DNA of 26,127 bases from positions 1-26,127 of the IMG/VR virus record IMGVR_UViG_3300037517_001162; one strand, 5' to 3'. The position numbers and the translations under genes are program-made. Positions 318 through 21,519 of this stretch are shown one piece after another (the first letter of the stretch is position 1; each line of letters begins with the position of its first letter). This DNA is from a virus. The notes beneath the pieces are model-generated. The model had not been told where the DNA came from and did no database searches. It saw only the letters and a program-made list of their open reading frames with translations.

Positions 318-346
318 ATTATATAACACCTTTAAAGATTAGTCAA
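318..346 (-). promoter_or_regulatory. Host-type (sigma70-like) promoter for gp32
   Basis: On the minus strand TTGACT (346-341) is followed after 17 bases by TATAAT (323-318). The -10 box is a perfect consensus and the -35 box matches five of six bases. The -35 box overlaps the last codons and stop of the endonuclease gene, so gp32 can be transcribed independently of it. The predicted start is near 311. Confidence 0.75.
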
Positions 347-995
347 GGGTTTGTAAAAAGTGTTTTCCTAAAATAGATTTTAGTTTTCTTTTTCCCCTAC
401 AACACTCTGAAATATGAGAGGGTGATGCCCCTAAGATTTTAGAAGCTGACTTTATACTATCATATATTTCTATAAGATTTTTATTTTCGTCAAATCTACC
501 AACTCTTTTTCTGTGTGGTTGGGAATAGCAAAGTTTTTTCTTAGTTTCATTAGAATATATTTTCCCCTGTAAAGATTGTGATATTTTTTTCTTTTGTTCA
601 TCAGACATCACATATCCGATATGAGATAATCTAAGATTGTTTTTATGTTCTTCTGAAAACTTTATACCTTTTCTTTTTGTAGATATTTTGTGCTTAGTGT
701 GTTCATTATGCTCTGATTGATTTCCACCAATTAAAAGATTATATCCATTTGGATATAAGGAGTTCTTTTTTTCTACCCAAAATATTTCTTTATCGTTCAA
801 TGATAAAATATCACACTCTTCTATTACATTTACAACAAATGATTTCCATCCATATTTACTTATAGCAGAATATAAAGGAGTATTTTTAGTTTTGGAAGAA
901 TATCTATGACCTCTTATTCTTGCTTTTAAATTCTTTGCTTGTCCAACATATACTTTATTATTTTTAATATTTACTATTTCATAGATACAAGGCAT
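339..995 (-). CDS. GIY-YIG homing endonuclease (Seg/I-TevI-like)
   Basis: A site-specific DNA endonuclease of 218 residues. The N-terminal GIY-YIG nuclease domain shows IYEIVN (4-9), KVYVGQ (14-19), the basic LKARIRGHR (23-31), and EIFWVE (70-75) followed by GYNLLIGG (84-91), the usual order of the family's catalytic elements. Two NUMOD3-like DNA-binding repeats follow (about 101-125 and 133-155), then a NUMOD1-like helix-turn-helix (about 163-218, with YDSIKSASKILG and SHISECCRGK). The ATG at 995 was chosen because the 16-residue upstream extension begins at a TTG and runs through the promoter boxes. It is a freestanding mobile gene inserted between the gp59/DUF1825 genes and gp32. T4 SegG sits beside gene 32 in the same way. 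Specificity cannot be read from the sequence. Confidence 0.92.
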   Translation of the reverse strand: MPCIYEIVNIKNNKVYVGQAKNLKARIRGHRYSSKTKNTPLYSAISKYGWKSFVVNVIEECDILSLNDKEIFWVEKKNSLYPNGYNLLIGGNQSEHNEHTKHKISTKRKGIKFSEEHKNNLRLSHIGYVMSDEQKKKISQSLQGKIYSNETKKKLCYSQPHRKRVGRFDENKNLIEIYDSIKSASKILGASPSHISECCRGKRKLKSILGKHFLQTLD

Positions 996-1021
996 TTTTA
1001 TCAACTTAAGGATACCATTAT

Positions 1022-1029
1022 TATTTATA
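1022..1029 (-). promoter_or_regulatory. T4-type late promoter box TATAAATA upstream of the endonuclease
   Basis: An exact match on the minus strand to the T4 late promoter core TATAAATA, 26 bases upstream of the endonuclease ATG. It lies just downstream of a host-type promoter. T4 homing endonucleases such as I-TevI are known to have late promoters placed to change translation of the message. Confidence 0.6.
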
Positions 1030-1033
1030 CAAA

Positions 1034-1062
1034 ATAATAGCAAAAGAAGAGGTCTCAGTCAA
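1034..1062 (-). promoter_or_regulatory. Host-type promoter upstream of the endonuclease
   Basis: TTGACT (1062-1057) is followed after 17 bases by TATTAT (1039-1034) on the minus strand. The TGA inside the -35 box is the stop codon of the DUF1825 gene, and the box is in the loop of that gene's terminator-like hairpin. Its predicted transcript would begin near 1027 and read through the endonuclease. Confidence 0.6.
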
Positions 1063-1067
1063 CCTCT
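1041..1067 (-). terminator. Weak intrinsic terminator after the DUF1825 gene
   Basis: AGAGGT (1048-1053) pairs with ACCTCT (1062-1067) around an 8-base loop. On the minus strand the hairpin is followed by a T-rich run (TTCTTTT). The stem is only 6 bp and the T run is interrupted, so termination is probably partial. Confidence 0.45.
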
Positions 1068-1387
1068 GCTTCTTTCTTGAGTCTTTGGATTACTCTTTGC
1101 ATGTTATCAAATACTATATTCATATCAGAAGGGTCTCCATAACCAATCATTCTGGATGCTTCAATAATTTCATTCTTCTTTTCAATGGCTTGTGGGTCAT
1201 CAGACAAACTCAATCTTGTATACAGGATTTTTTGTTTCTCTAATAATTCAGATAGCAAATTCACATGCTCAAGTTTTTCTGCCTTGGACATAATAGGAAA
1301 CCTCAAGACGCTCCTTGTAAGTTCCCTCTGAAGCTTCTCAATACTCTTTAGTTCTTTCTGAACTATTTCTGAATCGAAGAAGGCCAT
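1055..1387 (-). CDS. DUF1825 family protein
   Basis: A 110-residue protein of the DUF1825 family, known from cyanobacteria and their phages. The recognisable family start is MAFFDSEIVQKELKSIEKLQ, and the middle carries LLEKQKILYTRLSLSDDP (about 48-65). It is predicted to be almost entirely helical and soluble, with no signal peptide or membrane segment. Its function is unknown. It follows gp59 by one base and is the last gene before the inserted endonuclease. Its stop codon falls inside the -35 box of the next promoter. Confidence 0.85.
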   Translation of the reverse strand: MAFFDSEIVQKELKSIEKLQRELTRSVLRFPIMSKAEKLEHVNLLSELLEKQKILYTRLSLSDDPQAIEKKNEIIEASRMIGYGDPSDMNIVFDNMQRVIQRLKKEAEVD

Positions 1388-4574: not shown

Positions 4575-4735
4575 TTCTTTCCAAATCCTTTATAATTTTT
4601 ATGTTCAACTCTGTTTATTTCATCTTCAATGACTTGAAGTTGATGCTTCATATAATCCAACTCTGCTGGAGTATAAAATTTAGTTTGGTTCTCTGTTGCC
4701 TCTTTAAGCAACCTCAACATTTTTCTAAGCCTCAT
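4571..4735 (-). CDS. Small conserved protein upstream of thyX
   Basis: A 54-residue ORF, beginning MRLRKMLRLLKEATENQ and ending YKGFGKK. It is predicted to be helical and charged, with no membrane segment. It is joined by ATGA overlaps to both neighbours (the 51-residue gene upstream and thyX downstream), which is strong evidence of translation. An internal Met6 is an alternative start. No function can be assigned. Confidence 0.65.
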   Translation of the reverse strand: MRLRKMLRLLKEATENQTKFYTPAELDYMKHQLQVIEDEINRVEHKNYKGFGKK

Positions 4736-4887
4736 TCAGAAAATACCTCATCATAATCTCCTTCAAATGGCAAACCCATCACTTCTTCTTCTTCCACAAA
4801 GGAATCAACTTCATTTAATTCTTTTTTAAGAGCATCAACTAACAACTCCATATTTTTAACTATGAGTTTAACTCTTTCTTTATCCAT
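4732..4887 (-). CDS. Small acidic protein, first gene of the thyX unit
   Basis: A 51-residue ORF beginning MDKERVKLIVKNMELLV. It is helical at the N-terminus and strongly acidic at the C-terminus (EEEEV, then GDYDEVFSE). It overlaps the next gene as ATGA. It is the first gene after the host-type promoter at 4910-4938, with a predicted leader of only about 15 bases. The function is unknown. Confidence 0.62.
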   Translation of the reverse strand: MDKERVKLIVKNMELLVDALKKELNEVDSFVEEEEVMGLPFEGDYDEVFSE

Positions 4888-4909: not shown

Positions 4910-4938
4910 ATTTTACACAAAAAAAGAGGGAAAGTCAA
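4910..4938 (-). promoter_or_regulatory. Host-type promoter for the thyX-phoH transcription unit
   Basis: TTGACT (4938-4933) is followed after 17 bases by TAAAAT (4915-4910) on the minus strand. The TGA within the -35 box is the stop codon of the upstream gene, and the box is the loop of a strong terminator hairpin. It would drive the genes from 4887 down to at least the DUF1825 gene. Confidence 0.68.
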
Positions 4939-4945
4939 TCCCTCT
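4919..4945 (-). terminator. Intrinsic terminator ending the glutaredoxin-speD unit
   Basis: A 7-bp stem (AGAGGGA at 4925-4931, TCCCTCT at 4939-4945) with a 7-base loop is followed on the minus strand by seven Ts (4925-4919). It overlaps the end of the coding region at 4935 and encloses the next promoter's -35 box. Confidence 0.8.
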
Positions 4946-5255
4946 GTCTCCAATCATTTGGTTTTTCTTCAGTCCACCAATCAACCATATCATCAGTATC
5001 TCTAAATCCTTTTTTACCAAAACGATCAAATCCAGTTCCACCAATATCAAGTTGATTCAAAAAATCATCCATGTCACCTTCTTGCATATTGGGATTCTCT
5101 GCAGTCCTTCTTGCTTGACGAAGTATTGTTGCTGCTGATCTATTTGATTTTGCTAATTTCTCTACCCATATCATATCTTCCAAACTAACTTCTTCACCTT
5201 TTACAATTCTTTCACAAATTGCTTCCAGTCTCAATCTATACTGCGTAGAGAGCAT
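4935..5255 (-). CDS. Conserved cyanophage hypothetical protein downstream of speD
   Basis: A 106-residue soluble protein, helical in its first half (MLSTQYRLRLEAICERI, then SLEDMIWVEKLAKSN) with an acidic C-terminus carrying DDFLNQLDIGGTGFDR and DWWTEEKPNDW. The ATG at 5255 is preferred over a GTG four codons upstream. I recall similar proteins in other cyanophages, but no domain is recognised. A late-like box is located 22 bases upstream. Its stop codon is buried in the terminator-promoter element described at 4910-4945. Confidence 0.75.
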   Translation of the reverse strand: MLSTQYRLRLEAICERIVKGEEVSLEDMIWVEKLAKSNRSAATILRQARRTAENPNMQEGDMDDFLNQLDIGGTGFDRFGKKGFRDTDDMVDWWTEEKPNDWRQRD

Positions 5256-5276
5256 ATGTATTACCACATATAGGGT

Positions 5277-13850: not shown

Positions 13851-13901
13851 TTGTTTTAAAAGAATAGTAGGACCATCAGGGAAATGGTGGTGATACTATG
13901 C

Positions 13902-13922
13902 TCTCCACACCCTCAGTGGAGA
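13902..13922 (-). promoter_or_regulatory. Stem-loop in the psbA leader
   Basis: TCTCCAC (13902-13908) pairs with GTGGAGA (13916-13922) around a 7-base loop. It is about 50 bases upstream of the psbA ATG and begins about 5 bases after the start predicted from the box at 13934-13942. It may stabilise or regulate the message. Confidence 0.5.
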
Positions 13923-13933
13923 TATGAGAGACG

Positions 13934-13942
13934 TAATTTATA
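13934..13942 (-). promoter_or_regulatory. Late-like box TATAAATTA in the psbA leader
   Basis: The minus strand reads GTGTATAAATTACG, one base longer than the T4 late core. No -35 element at 17 bases was found, which fits a late rather than a host-type promoter. It would give a psbA leader of about 77 bases. Confidence 0.4.
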
Positions 13943-14010
13943 CACCCATAGGTCTCGGTTAGCGGGTGTTCAACTGTTAAGAACTTGTTACATTCCTTAA
14001 CTTGTTGTTG

Positions 14011-17846: not shown

Positions 17847-18521
17847 TTAACCTTTTTTCCAAGATTCACCTTCTGCTTTTCTTCTACGAGCAAGTCCTGC
17901 TTCTACGTTTGAACCAGGATTTCTGTAGAGGTATAAAGCATCTGGAACTAAGTCCCATTCTTTATTCTTCAGGCGTTTAGTAATAGTATTAAAGTTATCA
18001 CCACCGTAAAAACCGGCACCAAGATTATAAGCAAAGCTGAGCAGAGCGCCTCTTTTTCCATCTGACATTTCATTCCAATGTGGGATTTTACGAAGTGCAG
18101 GAAGAAACTGGTTCTTACACTGACTGATTAGCAGATCATCTGCTTCTTGCTGAGTGATTGTATCTCCAAGTTTGAATGCCGAACCATCTTTCTTGCGAGT
18201 GGAACCCCAACCAATAGTGATTGGAAGTCCACCAGTCAGAGGGTCAGGATACGCCTTTAGATGGCATCCTTCAAACTCTTTTATTAATTTGATACCCATC
18301 ATTGGAACATCGTCACCACCTGCTACTGGAGCAGAAGGAGCTGCAGCAGCAGGGGCTGGTGCAGCATTACCCTTTTTTCCTCTATAAATCTCCGCCCAAT
18401 CAACATTGTCCTCAAGGAACTTAACTGGGAGGTTATCTTCTAACCACTGAACTGCTTTCACATGGTTAGGGTTCTTCTCATCATAGAACTTGAAGAAGTT
18501 GTGTAAATCGATTCTTGCCAT
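17847..18521 (-). CDS. GH24 muramidase (endolysin) with N-terminal targeting domain
   Basis: A 224-residue lysozyme-type endolysin that cleaves the glycan chain of peptidoglycan. The N-terminal ~48 residues (IDLHNFFKFYDEKNPNHVKA, then QWLEDNLP) form a domain shared with the C39-type protein just upstream. An Ala/Pro-rich linker follows (about 51-68). The GH24 domain starts near 76: IKEFEGCHLKAYPDP with catalytic Glu84 and Asp93, then ITIGWGST with Thr108, and a later LLSFAYNLG typical of the family. There is no signal peptide, so release probably depends on a holin. A strong ribosome-binding site (AAGGAGAACAACA) precedes the ATG. Confidence 0.9.
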   Translation of the reverse strand: MARIDLHNFFKFYDEKNPNHVKAVQWLEDNLPVKFLEDNVDWAEIYRGKKGNAAPAPAAAAPSAPVAGGDDVPMMGIKLIKEFEGCHLKAYPDPLTGGLPITIGWGSTRKKDGSAFKLGDTITQQEADDLLISQCKNQFLPALRKIPHWNEMSDGKRGALLSFAYNLGAGFYGGDNFNTITKRLKNKEWDLVPDALYLYRNPGSNVEAGLARRRKAEGESWKKG

Positions 18522-18539
18522 TGTTGTTCTCCTTAGTTA

Positions 18540-19211
18540 TCAATCAAAAATACGTCCCCAACCATCGTTGCCGCCTGGGCACCAACGATGCTTAAGCATT
18601 GCTTTAGTATAAATGGTCTTCTTACCATTTGTTACTGGACCAGTGTAGTTGTCATTGCATGATCCATATGGATCATTACAATAGTAACCCTTACCATCTG
18701 GTGTCTTACCGATGACTACAACCATGTGCCCACCAGTAGGAGCAGATAAAGGACCACGATGCAAGATACCAATAACAACAGGTTTCCCAGCATCAAGACT
18801 CTTATCAATATCATTAAAAGAAAGATTGTAACTAAAGTGTGACTTAACCCCATAACCTGCCAGAACCTTTGTCTGTACAGAATGGTCGGTCGTGTCACCA
18901 ATCGCAAATACTTTCTTAACATACTCATCATCACCTTTGATGCTTCCTGGTTTAAGGAACGCAAGACACATAGCACATGATGAACTGTTACAAGTCCTAT
19001 GCGCATCTCTGTAGTTATCTACTTGATTAAAATATGGAACAGCAAGAACTGCTGGAGTTGGTGGTTTGGTTCTAAAAATACCAATCCAATCAGTTTCTGA
19101 GTCATCCATAAACTCAGCAGGAAGGTTATCTTCCAACCATTGAACTGCTGCCACATGATTTGCATTACCATCATCATAATACTTAAAAAAGTTATGAAGA
19201 TCTAAGGTCAT
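18540..19211 (-). CDS. C39-family-like cysteine peptidase with the same N-terminal domain
   Basis: A 223-residue protein. Residues 1-48 (LDLHNFFKYYDDGNANHVAA, then QWLEDNLP) closely match the start of the GH24 endolysin. The C-terminal domain (about 56-223) resembles peptidase C39-like papain folds: VPYFNQVDNYRDAHRTCNSSS with candidate nucleophile Cys74 or Cys79, His162 in GGHMVVVIG, and Asp180 in NDPYGS. It may cleave peptidoglycan stem peptides, complementing the muramidase; the substrate is inferred. The gene order peptidase, muramidase, two-helix protein suggests a lysis set. A late-like box and AAGAGA precede the ATG. Confidence 0.85.
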   Translation of the reverse strand: MTLDLHNFFKYYDDGNANHVAAVQWLEDNLPAEFMDDSETDWIGIFRTKPPTPAVLAVPYFNQVDNYRDAHRTCNSSSCAMCLAFLKPGSIKGDDEYVKKVFAIGDTTDHSVQTKVLAGYGVKSHFSYNLSFNDIDKSLDAGKPVVIGILHRGPLSAPTGGHMVVVIGKTPDGKGYYCNDPYGSCNDNYTGPVTNGKKTIYTKAMLKHRWCPGGNDGWGRIFD

Positions 19212-19410: not shown

Positions 19411-19443
19411 AAAAAACTCTGTCCTATATTTAGGACAGAGTTT
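19411..19443 (-). terminator. Strong intrinsic terminator of the hli operon
   Basis: A perfect 13-bp stem (19414-19426 with 19431-19443) has a 4-base loop and is followed on the minus strand by a T run (19416-19411). The stem-loop apex reads CTAAATATAG, resembling the late promoter boxes, so it may also start transcription of the next gene. Confidence 0.88.
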
Positions 19444-19593: not shown

Positions 19594-19680
19594 TTAGTAA
19601 GTTTCAGAAAGTTTTTCTACAGAATAACTCAGAAGCACAAAAAAAGCAACTGAGGTGATGGTAAAAATTGCTTCAGTCAT
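19594..19680 (-). CDS. 28-residue membrane peptide between two hli genes
   Basis: A 28-residue ORF (begins MTEAIFTITSVAFFVLLSY, ends SVEKLSETY) with one hydrophobic helix at about 4-19. The ATG overlaps the stop of the upstream hli as TGATG, and the next hli starts 12 bases after it. Size and topology resemble the tiny subunits of photosystems and cytochrome b6f, but I do not recognise it as any of them. Confidence 0.55.
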   Translation of the reverse strand: MTEAIFTITSVAFFVLLSYSVEKLSETY

Positions 19681-19874
19681 CAGAAGATCCCGAAGAAGAA
19701 GTTGCCAGTGCTAACATAAGAAATGATGCCAGCAACAAAACCGACCATTGCCCAGCGCCCATTAGTCCTCTCCTTAACCTGATTTGGAGTCATCATCCCA
19801 TAGTTTTCATAATACATTGTAGGCTCTTTTGCCCACATGTTTTGCTGACCATATTCATTAGTTGTAACAGTCAT
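19680..19874 (-). CDS. hli: High-light-inducible protein
   Basis: A 64-residue Hli. The N-terminal 32 residues are polar (MTVTTNEYGQQNMWAKEP, then MMTPNQVKE). The single helix carries the CAB motif ERTNGRWAMVGFVAGIISY (35-53) and the protein ends TGNFFFGIF, typical of cyanobacterial and cyanophage Hli proteins. It has its own host-type promoter 28 bases upstream and is the first gene of the three-gene hli operon. Confidence 0.95.
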   Translation of the reverse strand: MTVTTNEYGQQNMWAKEPTMYYENYGMMTPNQVKERTNGRWAMVGFVAGIISYVSTGNFFFGIF

Positions 19875-19901: not shown

Positions 19902-19930
19902 ATTATATAGCAAAAAGAAAGGGGAGTCAA
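19902..19930 (-). promoter_or_regulatory. Host-type promoter for the hli operon
   Basis: TTGACT (19930-19925) is followed after 17 bases by TATAAT (19907-19902) on the minus strand. The -35 box lies in the loop of the porin terminator hairpin. The start is predicted near 19895, giving a leader of about 20 bases. Confidence 0.75.
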
Positions 19931-19938
19931 TCCCCCCC
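19912..19938 (-). terminator. Intrinsic terminator after the porin gene
   Basis: GGGGA (19921-19925) pairs with TCCCC (19931-19935) around a 5-base loop, followed on the minus strand by TTTCTTTTT. The stem is short but all but one pair is G-C. It encloses the -35 box of the hli promoter. Confidence 0.65.
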
Positions 19939-19970: not shown

Positions 19971-21470
19971 TCAGAACCTAAAGCTTGTCTGAATCACGCC
20001 ACCATAGTTGTCTGAAGCATTTTTCAGACCTTGATTATTGGACACATAGAACACAGCAGGAGTGATGCTAATGTTGTCACTAACCTTGTAACGATAGAAT
20101 GCTTCCCACATAATTGCCTTTTGGTCAGCAGCAAGAGTAGCAGCATTGCCAGGAGCACCAATGGCGAAACCAGCAGCATTACCCTTAGCAAATACATCTG
20201 CCCACTGAAGACCAGCAAACCAAGTTTGTGAATCAGTAGCACCAGTAGGAGTCTGACGATTGTTAGACAGACTTACAGTGTTCCAACCATAAGCACCACT
20301 CACAGAAGGAATGATGCCAGACTTCTTGGGTTGCCAATAAGCATTCAGAGCATAACCATTAGAGGTTTGGTTAGCACCAAGAGCACCAGAACCACCACCA
20401 ATAGCATTGAAGTTACGAACACGAGTACCTTCAGTACCATAACGATAACCAAAAGCGATACCATACTGAGGAGCACGATATCCAATTTGAGCAAGAGTAT
20501 TCAGAGAACCATCTTCATCAAACTGTCCTTTGGTAGAGTCTGAACCATTTTGAGCAACATAGTTGACTCCAGCAATGAAACCAGGCTTTCCTTTCTTGGT
20601 TGGTTGAACCCACTGAGCACCAAAACCAGAACCAGTTGCCTTGTTATAGACACCAGGAGCACCAGCAACAGAGAAGAAGTCCAGAATGTCTGAACGATAG
20701 GCAGTAGGAACCCACGCCATCTCAGTGTTACGAACCTGAGCACCTGCAGTCAGAGTCAGACCTTTGGTGAGAGCAGGGAAGCTGTAGTAGAGACGATCAA
20801 GAGTAACTTGGTTAGCATAGGTTTCTGCCTTGTCCAGTTTGAACAGAGAGGAAGAAGAACCAAATGGTTGACTGGAGAAGTTACCAGAACGCAGACGAGT
20901 CTTGAGCAGATCCTTACCAGTGAAGGAAGTATCAAAACTTAGGCGAACATCATAGTTGAATGCAGTATTGCCTACATTAGTGCTATTGGCAAGACGAGCA
21001 CCAGCAACACCACCAAGAACAAAGGTTGCTTCACCTTTGAGTTTAGTAGTAGTAGAGAACTGCTGTGCCTGAAGAGCAGCAGACTGCTTCTCCAGCTTAG
21101 CAACACGTCCGTTAATTACCGTAAGTTCTTTAGAGAAATCATTCATAAGACGATTGATTTCATCAGTAACCTCAGTAACACGATCAAGGCAAGCATTCAG
21201 GAGTGCTGCTGCCTCATAACGAGTCATTGCCTTACCACCACCATAGGTTCCATTCTCATAACCAGCAACGCAACCATAACGCTCAACAAGATTGCTAAGT
21301 GCTTGATAAGCCCAGTCTCCAGGCTTTACATCAGAAAATTGTGTAATGCTTGTAACTTGATCTGTTGAATATTGATTGACTGCTGCAACATTAAGATCTG
21401 CAGCATTTGCAGCAGTAGGAGCAATCATTCCAAAAGCAACAGGTGCAAGCATCAGTTGTTTAAATTTCAT
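19971..21470 (-). CDS. Outer-membrane porin with SLH domain (cyanobacterial Som-like)
   Basis: A 499-residue porin of the cyanobacterial SLH-OprB type. It has a signal peptide (1-23, ending TAANA), an SLH domain (about 45-95, QFSDVKPGDWAYQALSNLVE and MTRYEAAALLNACLD) for peptidoglycan binding, a short coiled coil (about 98-135), then a beta-barrel domain rich in alternating hydrophobic strands. The last residue is Phe (SFRF), the usual outer-membrane insertion signal. The ATG at 21470 (MKFKQLM) is chosen over 21509 because it gives a proper signal peptide. Its composition is richer in G/C (25 of 60 at 20461-20520) than the next genes (13 of 60 at 22381-22440), which suggests acquisition from a host. 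Confidence 0.93.
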   Translation of the reverse strand: MKFKQLMLAPVAFGMIAPTAANAADLNVAAVNQYSTDQVTSITQFSDVKPGDWAYQALSNLVERYGCVAGYENGTYGGGKAMTRYEAAALLNACLDRVTEVTDEINRLMNDFSKELTVINGRVAKLEKQSAALQAQQFSTTTKLKGEATFVLGGVAGARLANSTNVGNTAFNYDVRLSFDTSFTGKDLLKTRLRSGNFSSQPFGSSSSLFKLDKAETYANQVTLDRLYYSFPALTKGLTLTAGAQVRNTEMAWVPTAYRSDILDFFSVAGAPGVYNKATGSGFGAQWVQPTKKGKPGFIAGVNYVAQNGSDSTKGQFDEDGSLNTLAQIGYRAPQYGIAFGYRYGTEGTRVRNFNAIGGGSGALGANQTSNGYALNAYWQPKKSGIIPSVSGAYGWNTVSLSNNRQTPTGATDSQTWFAGLQWADVFAKGNAAGFAIGAPGNAATLAADQKAIMWEAFYRYKVSDNISITPAVFYVSNNQGLKNASDNYGGVIQTSFRF

Positions 21471-21500
21471 AAAAATTTTGTATGTACTAAACGACGAATA

Positions 21501-21519
21501 AGGTTTCAAAATAAAACCT
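21501..21519 (-). promoter_or_regulatory. Stem-loop in the porin leader
   Basis: AGGTTT (21501-21506) pairs with AAACCT (21514-21519) around a 7-base loop. It is near the 5' end of the transcript predicted from the CTAAATA box at 21523-21529 and 30 bases upstream of the ATG. Confidence 0.5.

Follow-up and report, generated by a model that had tools for sequence, protein, structure and literature searches.

The window, that is, the whole stretch of DNA analyzed, is an entire virus record, a fragment of 26,127 bases carrying genes for a helicase loader, an exonuclease, PhoH, ThyX, psbA and hli, and the start of gp32; its best DNA match is Synechococcus phage DSL-LC02. This gene content, together with the DNA matches, identifies the window as a fragment of a T4-like cyanophage. 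We found three U-tailed hairpins in the window that enclose a TTGACT −35 box (E1, E2 and E3), all on the minus strand and each with a −35/−10 spacing of exactly 17 nt. The sigma-70-type boxes of these elements match the consensus at 10-11 of 12 positions, and the hairpins are GC-rich and followed by a U-tract, as in intrinsic terminators, the U-tract of E2 being interrupted or short. The elements and their neighboring genes are as follows.

4919..4945, minus strand: E1 putative terminator, stem AGAGGGA/TCCCTCT, loop TTGACTT, six-T tract
4910..4938, minus strand: E1 putative promoter, −35 TTGACT (4938-4933), 17 nt, −10 TAAAAT (4915-4910)
4935..5267, minus strand: gene upstream of E1, phrog_507, function unknown; TGA stop at 4937-4935, within the −35 box
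4732..4887, minus strand: gene downstream of E1, phrog_878, function unknown; heads the thyX-phoH-exonuclease run
1042..1067, minus strand: E2 putative terminator, hairpin 1067-1048 and T-rich tail; −35 box partly in the stem
1034..1062, minus strand: E2 putative promoter, TTGACT (1062-1057), 17 nt, −10 TATTAT (1039-1034), preceded by TGC
1055..1387, minus strand: gene upstream of E2, phrog_468, DUF1825; stop TGA at 1057-1055
339..1043, minus strand: open reading frame (ORF) downstream of E2, GIY-YIG-type homing endonuclease; probable ATG start at 995
318-346, minus strand: second consensus promoter, TTGACT (346-341)-17-TATAAT, immediately before g32, without a hairpin
19912..19938, minus strand: E3 putative terminator, GGGGGG(A)-TTGACT-CCCC hairpin (19938-19920) and TTTCTTTTT tract
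19902..19930, minus strand: E3 putative promoter, TTGACT (19930-19925), 17 nt, −10 TATAAT (19907-19902)
19680..19874, minus strand: gene downstream of E3, high-light-inducible protein (hli)
19971..21509, minus strand: gene upstream of E3, SLH-OprB porin-like; stop about 40 nt from E3

E1 lies in front of the thyX operon. Its minus strand reads AGAGGGA-TTGACTT-TCCCTCT-TTTTTT-GTG-TAAAAT (4945-4910), with the stem formed by 4945-4939 and 4931-4925 and the U-tract at 4924-4919, so that the 17-nt spacer is composed of the 3′ arm and the U-tract. The RNA has a predicted folding energy of −10.9 kcal/mol (z −3.2). A reading of this DNA made from the sequence alone had placed the TGA stop of the upstream gene inside TTGACT, and this is what we observed, the stop being that of the phrog_507 gene. 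The same reading claimed an identical nesting at 1034-1067 (E2), of which the hairpin and the promoter were found, but not the enclosed stop, as only the last T of TTGACT is common to both. The first two T of the E2 −35 box are paired in the stem of the predicted fold, and the U-tract is weak. For 19902-19938 (E3) it described a −35 box held in the loop with the stop codon farther away, in agreement with our data; the last two bases of the E3 TTGACT are paired in the predicted best fold.

The surroundings of E2 differ from those in related phages. The homing endonuclease gene separates the phrog_468 gene from g32, its neighbor in relatives, and also parts E2, the putative promoter in the position of the relatives' g32 promoter, from g32. 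At this locus, most relatives possess the promoter without a hairpin, and a hairpin is present in three related loci (L175, L176 and L178) and in the window. As this distribution suggests, a promoter already in place can acquire a surrounding hairpin.

Several other features were noted in the window. A search of Rfam 15 above the gathering score gave no match at any of the three elements, the sole match in the window being the PhotoRC-II cis-regulatory RNA 5′ of psbA (13888-13979, minus strand; RF01717, 78.6 bits). A 13-bp hairpin at 19414-19443 has a T-rich tail on each strand, and similar ones occur in S-SKS1 and three contigs (G001, G002 and G008). The two halves of a phrog_3617 endolysin-like family are split over adjacent ORFs (18540-19211 and 17847-18521) within 17847-19211. 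The product of the phage gene upstream of hli (19971-21509) combines SLH and OprB domains, as in outer-membrane porins of the cyanobacterial type.

Enrichment and conservation of the fused elements

None of 500 dinucleotide shuffles of the window contained a single element, as compared with the three observed, and every U-tailed hairpin around TTGAC in the window doubles as a promoter match. The sequence-only reading had suggested a search of related cyanophages for TTGAC-loop hairpins followed by a −10 box after 17 bases, and the arrangement proved widespread: 88 complete elements were found in 176 non-redundant related viral loci (1.70 Mb). In the same sequences, nine of ten control 5-mers scored 0-2, and the tenth, CTTGA, scored 47 because it overlaps TTGAC. 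A chance origin of the elements was ruled out by the shuffles and the control words. A first pattern demanding a T-run directly after TTGACN gave almost no matches, since the 3′ arm stands between the loop and the T-run. The pattern GGGG..TTGAC..CCCCTTTT matched at least 120 loci in IMG/VR, and a −10 box lay at 16-18 nt in 56 of the 103 distinct TTGAC-loop matches, among the matches listed. With the control loop CAGTT, we obtained 41 loci in total, and none of 31 distinct matches had a −10 box at that distance. In five host cyanobacterial genomes the pattern was not enriched (6 matches, as against 17 for the reversed control), and a host origin of the element was rejected on this ground.

We then compared orthologous loci, where counts overstate the number of independent origins because the sequences are related. 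The fused element is present upstream of hli in 54 of 77 loci. Among distinct hli promoters that were not selected for a hairpin, 37 of 42 carry one centered near the −35 box, and 35 of 38 unselected promoters of the thyX operon are likewise nested. In the hli orthologues the −35 box and the 17-nt spacing are fixed while the stems vary by compensatory substitution. Within one hli register, a group of related sequences that had been picked for having the hairpin, two-sided changes occurred in four of eight pairs, and UA, AU, CG and GC were all seen in one pair; the covariation score was matched by none of 500 shuffles and was far lower with slid partners. Exchange of arms between hli orthologues still allowed stems to form in 61% of cases, as compared with 86% for the native arms; this test is weak because the arms are alike, and the pair-count test was therefore used.

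These data also bear on the alternative that the inverted repeat serves a DNA-binding regulator as its operator and does not act as a terminator. Inverted repeats spanning −35 boxes are common operators. However, a protein site would conserve its sequence, whereas the stems vary among sites and among orthologues with the pairing kept, and the U-tract lies on one side. We therefore rejected a protein operator, which appears very improbable.

The two halves are separable. Three hli loci (L110, L117 and L123) have the promoter but no hairpin, two (L115 and L138) have the hairpin with the −35 box lost, and two more (L135 and L170) have a weakened −35 box. The existence of promoter-only and terminator-only orthologues indicates that one half can be lost without the other. 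The fusion is dispensable, since some hli loci possess one half only and Syn9, P-SSM4 and S-CRM01 show a weak match at best. As for the neighboring genes, a comparison of gene content showed that the downstream gene is constant and the upstream genes vary at both the thyX and hli loci; the proteins upstream at the thyX locus form about 12 groups by similarity, and some of these may be spurious ORFs.

Stop codons, register and spread among cyanophages

A start codon lies within 80 nt of the −10 box in 106 of 111 distinct elements. The upstream stop codon is less constant: in the 101 elements with an identifiable upstream ORF, the stop is the TGA inside TTGAC in 16 and shares the last base of TTGAC in 2, and most stops lie 15-50 nt upstream. 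The stop codon, which the sequence-only reading had included in the module, is thus not supported as a general part of it. The upstream proteins of the stop-in-loop form are unrelated to one another, one of them being encoded before hli in S-PM2. Trailing ribosomes are known to keep terminator hairpins from forming (PMC5021804). On this basis, a stop in the loop could make the terminator depend on translation, a close ribosome covering the hairpin and causing read-through, and an untranslated transcript being terminated. The 16 elements with unrelated upstream proteins would agree with such gating, but the distance of 15-50 nt in most elements argues against it, and the overlap may be incidental because an ORF entering TTGAC in that frame must stop. 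We consider translational gating improbable.

To what extent the −35 box prefers the loop was apparent from the predicted terminators. Among 382 of these in loci fetched with thyX, hli or phoH, 148 −10-like matches lay 20-23 nt from the loop center, as compared with about 3 at each neighboring distance in the same loci. These loci are biased towards orthologous elements, and we therefore examined 19 cyanophage complete genomes or large contigs (2.7 Mb), some contigs of which had been found via thyX, hli or phoH. A −10-like match at the loop register was found in 69 of 375 terminators, about 12 being expected from the other distances. When a full consensus promoter was required, the −35 box was at the loop in 23 of 459 terminators, and tandem consensus promoters 15-120 nt downstream of terminators amounted to 8 in total. 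A lesser excess (14) at 36-50 nt upstream reflects hairpins close to the transcript start. Hairpins centered near the −10 box or transcript start were seen in S-PM2 (142280), S-SKS1 (197516) and DSL-LC03 (21934), and are possible 5′-end hairpins.

One explanation for the overlap is compaction: a short gap has to hold both signals, which overlap to save space, and the fusion itself brings no benefit. The intergenic gaps are small, the halves can be lost separately, and a stop codon overlaps a −35 box also where there is no hairpin, as in the TAA of the homing endonuclease gene (341-339), which shares the last T of the −35 box of the second promoter (346-341). However, compaction alone would not favor a single register, yet the −35-at-loop form prevails in cyanophages, with few tandem or other overlaps. 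Compaction alone is thus a possible, though not the favored, explanation.

A purine-rich 5′ arm was seen in 93 of 99 fused terminators, as compared with 408 of 761 others, these counts including orthologues that are not independent. Other −35-like loops recur, namely TTGCAT, TTGAAA and TTTAC. A terminator with a GCATA loop (GGTT-gcata-AACC...TATAAT), in which a weak −35 box TTGCAT lies at the loop, was noted in S-SKS1 and five contigs (G002, G003, G005, G008 and G012). The number of elements per genome ranges from none or one weak match (Syn9, S-CRM01 and P-SSM4) to about five (contig G002). S-PM2 has one at 124309, before hli, DSL-LC02 one at 91331, and S-SKS1 has three. Stems differ among sites within the window and within contigs such as G002 and G003, and spread of a single ancestral copy inside one genome is accordingly not favored. 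The proposal of a reusable module, based on three independent cases, is supported in so far as the arrangement recurs at many sites and is retained at orthologous loci. The three cases differ in stem and in site, but most genomes examined carry only 0-5 elements.

Proposed mode of action and relation to known motifs

Taken together, these results suggest that each element is an intrinsic terminator and an early promoter of the host sigma-70 type in the same ~45 bases, insulating the next gene, a reading to which we assign a probability of about 0.8. In the RNA of the upstream unit, the G-rich 5′ arm would pair with the C/U-rich 3′ arm around a UUGAC loop, and transcription would end at the U-tract. 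As double-stranded DNA, the loop bases would act as the −35 box, and the 3′ arm with the U-tract would provide the 17 bp that separate it from the −10 box, where the next gene would start, the same DNA recruiting host RNA polymerase for the next unit. As an insulated promoter, the module may remain with the downstream gene, whose expression would be kept independent of the upstream surroundings at almost no cost in length. From the sequences we infer that both halves are active in the cell, that the promoter acts early and that insulation is the benefit under selection. Points against this reading are the partly paired −35 box and weak U-tract of E2, the hli loci with a single half and the matches in Syn9, P-SSM4 and S-CRM01, which are weak at best.

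The geometry has a further consequence. Since termination would fall between the −35 and −10 boxes, a polymerase in the act of terminating would lie over the next promoter, and transient interference or a polymerase relay is possible for this reason. In such coupling, elongation would transiently block the promoter, and polymerase would release its RNA in the spacer, stay on the DNA, regain sigma and restart at the same promoter. Polymerase retained after intrinsic termination does restart nearby in vitro, and the possibility that it restarts in the sense direction at a promoter close to the terminator has been raised in general terms (PMC6978322). However, the restarts in that study are mostly antisense, and promoter-only and terminator-only orthologues exist, so that we regard coupling as unlikely. 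With similarly low confidence, a relay may be envisaged in which polymerase terminates within the following promoter's spacer and starts again there while still on the DNA, a stop codon in the loop letting the ribosome set the balance between read-through and relay. Post-termination restart provides a mechanism by which a terminator may feed an adjacent promoter, but it is a behavior of polymerase in vitro and not a sequence family (PMC6978322).

The moron-type cassettes of lambdoid phages, which carry a promoter and a terminator, resemble the element as understood here in that the two signals insulate an exchangeable gene, but there the signals stand apart on either side of the ORF (PMC1524935). 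Literature searches, in whose range the original papers on PeSLs (promoter-early stem-loops) did not fall, returned nothing relevant on a −35 box in a terminator loop or on such elements in cyanophages. PeSLs, motifs of T4-like phages that combine a terminator with a promoter, were reportedly described by Arbiol et al. in 2010 and by Comeau et al. in 2014, both cited in PMC4503421, according to which PeSLs are sparse in cyanophage S-PM2. They are the closest known motif to our elements: in both, a sigma-70-type promoter, early in PeSLs and probably so here, overlaps a terminator-like stem-loop in one short sequence at gene boundaries. Neighboring genes are exchanged at PeSLs, and at the thyX and hli loci of cyanophages the upstream genes vary.

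Our comparison with PeSLs relied on the RB49, T4 and KVP40 sequences, read directly, and on descriptions in citing papers and general knowledge. In RB49 the hairpin is upstream or within the spacer, as in TTGACG-gggatcgcgagatcccc-TATACT at 33335, in contrast to the −35 box at the loop in cyanophages. In KVP40 the −35 box is in the 5′ arm of near-identical copies, AAAGGGTTGAC-tacg-GTCAGCCCTTT-cttg-TATTAT; such motifs were seen at 85859, 100194 and 121377. With the same criteria, neither the RB49 nor the KVP40 arrangement was found in the T4 sequence. The register of these phages is not shared by cyanophages, the hairpin center lying at +13.5 (RB49) and +6.5 (KVP40) from the start of the −35 box, versus about 0.5-4 in cyanophages. 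Near-identical copies within a genome, which could recombine and which KVP40 shows, were not seen in the window or in contigs such as G002 and G003, where the stems differ. Because of its register and the lack of copy-to-copy identity, the cyanophage element is set apart from the PeSL proper by the direct sequences and the citing-paper descriptions, and would be PeSL-like in its working.

The composite motifs known from T4-like phages thus gain a distinct register, whose difference from the others suggests more than one evolutionary origin of terminator/promoter fusions. With termination expected to end within the promoter that follows, the element offers a natural test case for post-termination restart of polymerase, and if the relay were true, a phage operon boundary would pass polymerase from gene to gene. 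The element, which is defined by sequence and recurs in aquatic cyanophages in front of hli, the thyX operon and genes of the g32 region, would serve as an insulated promoter of very small size.
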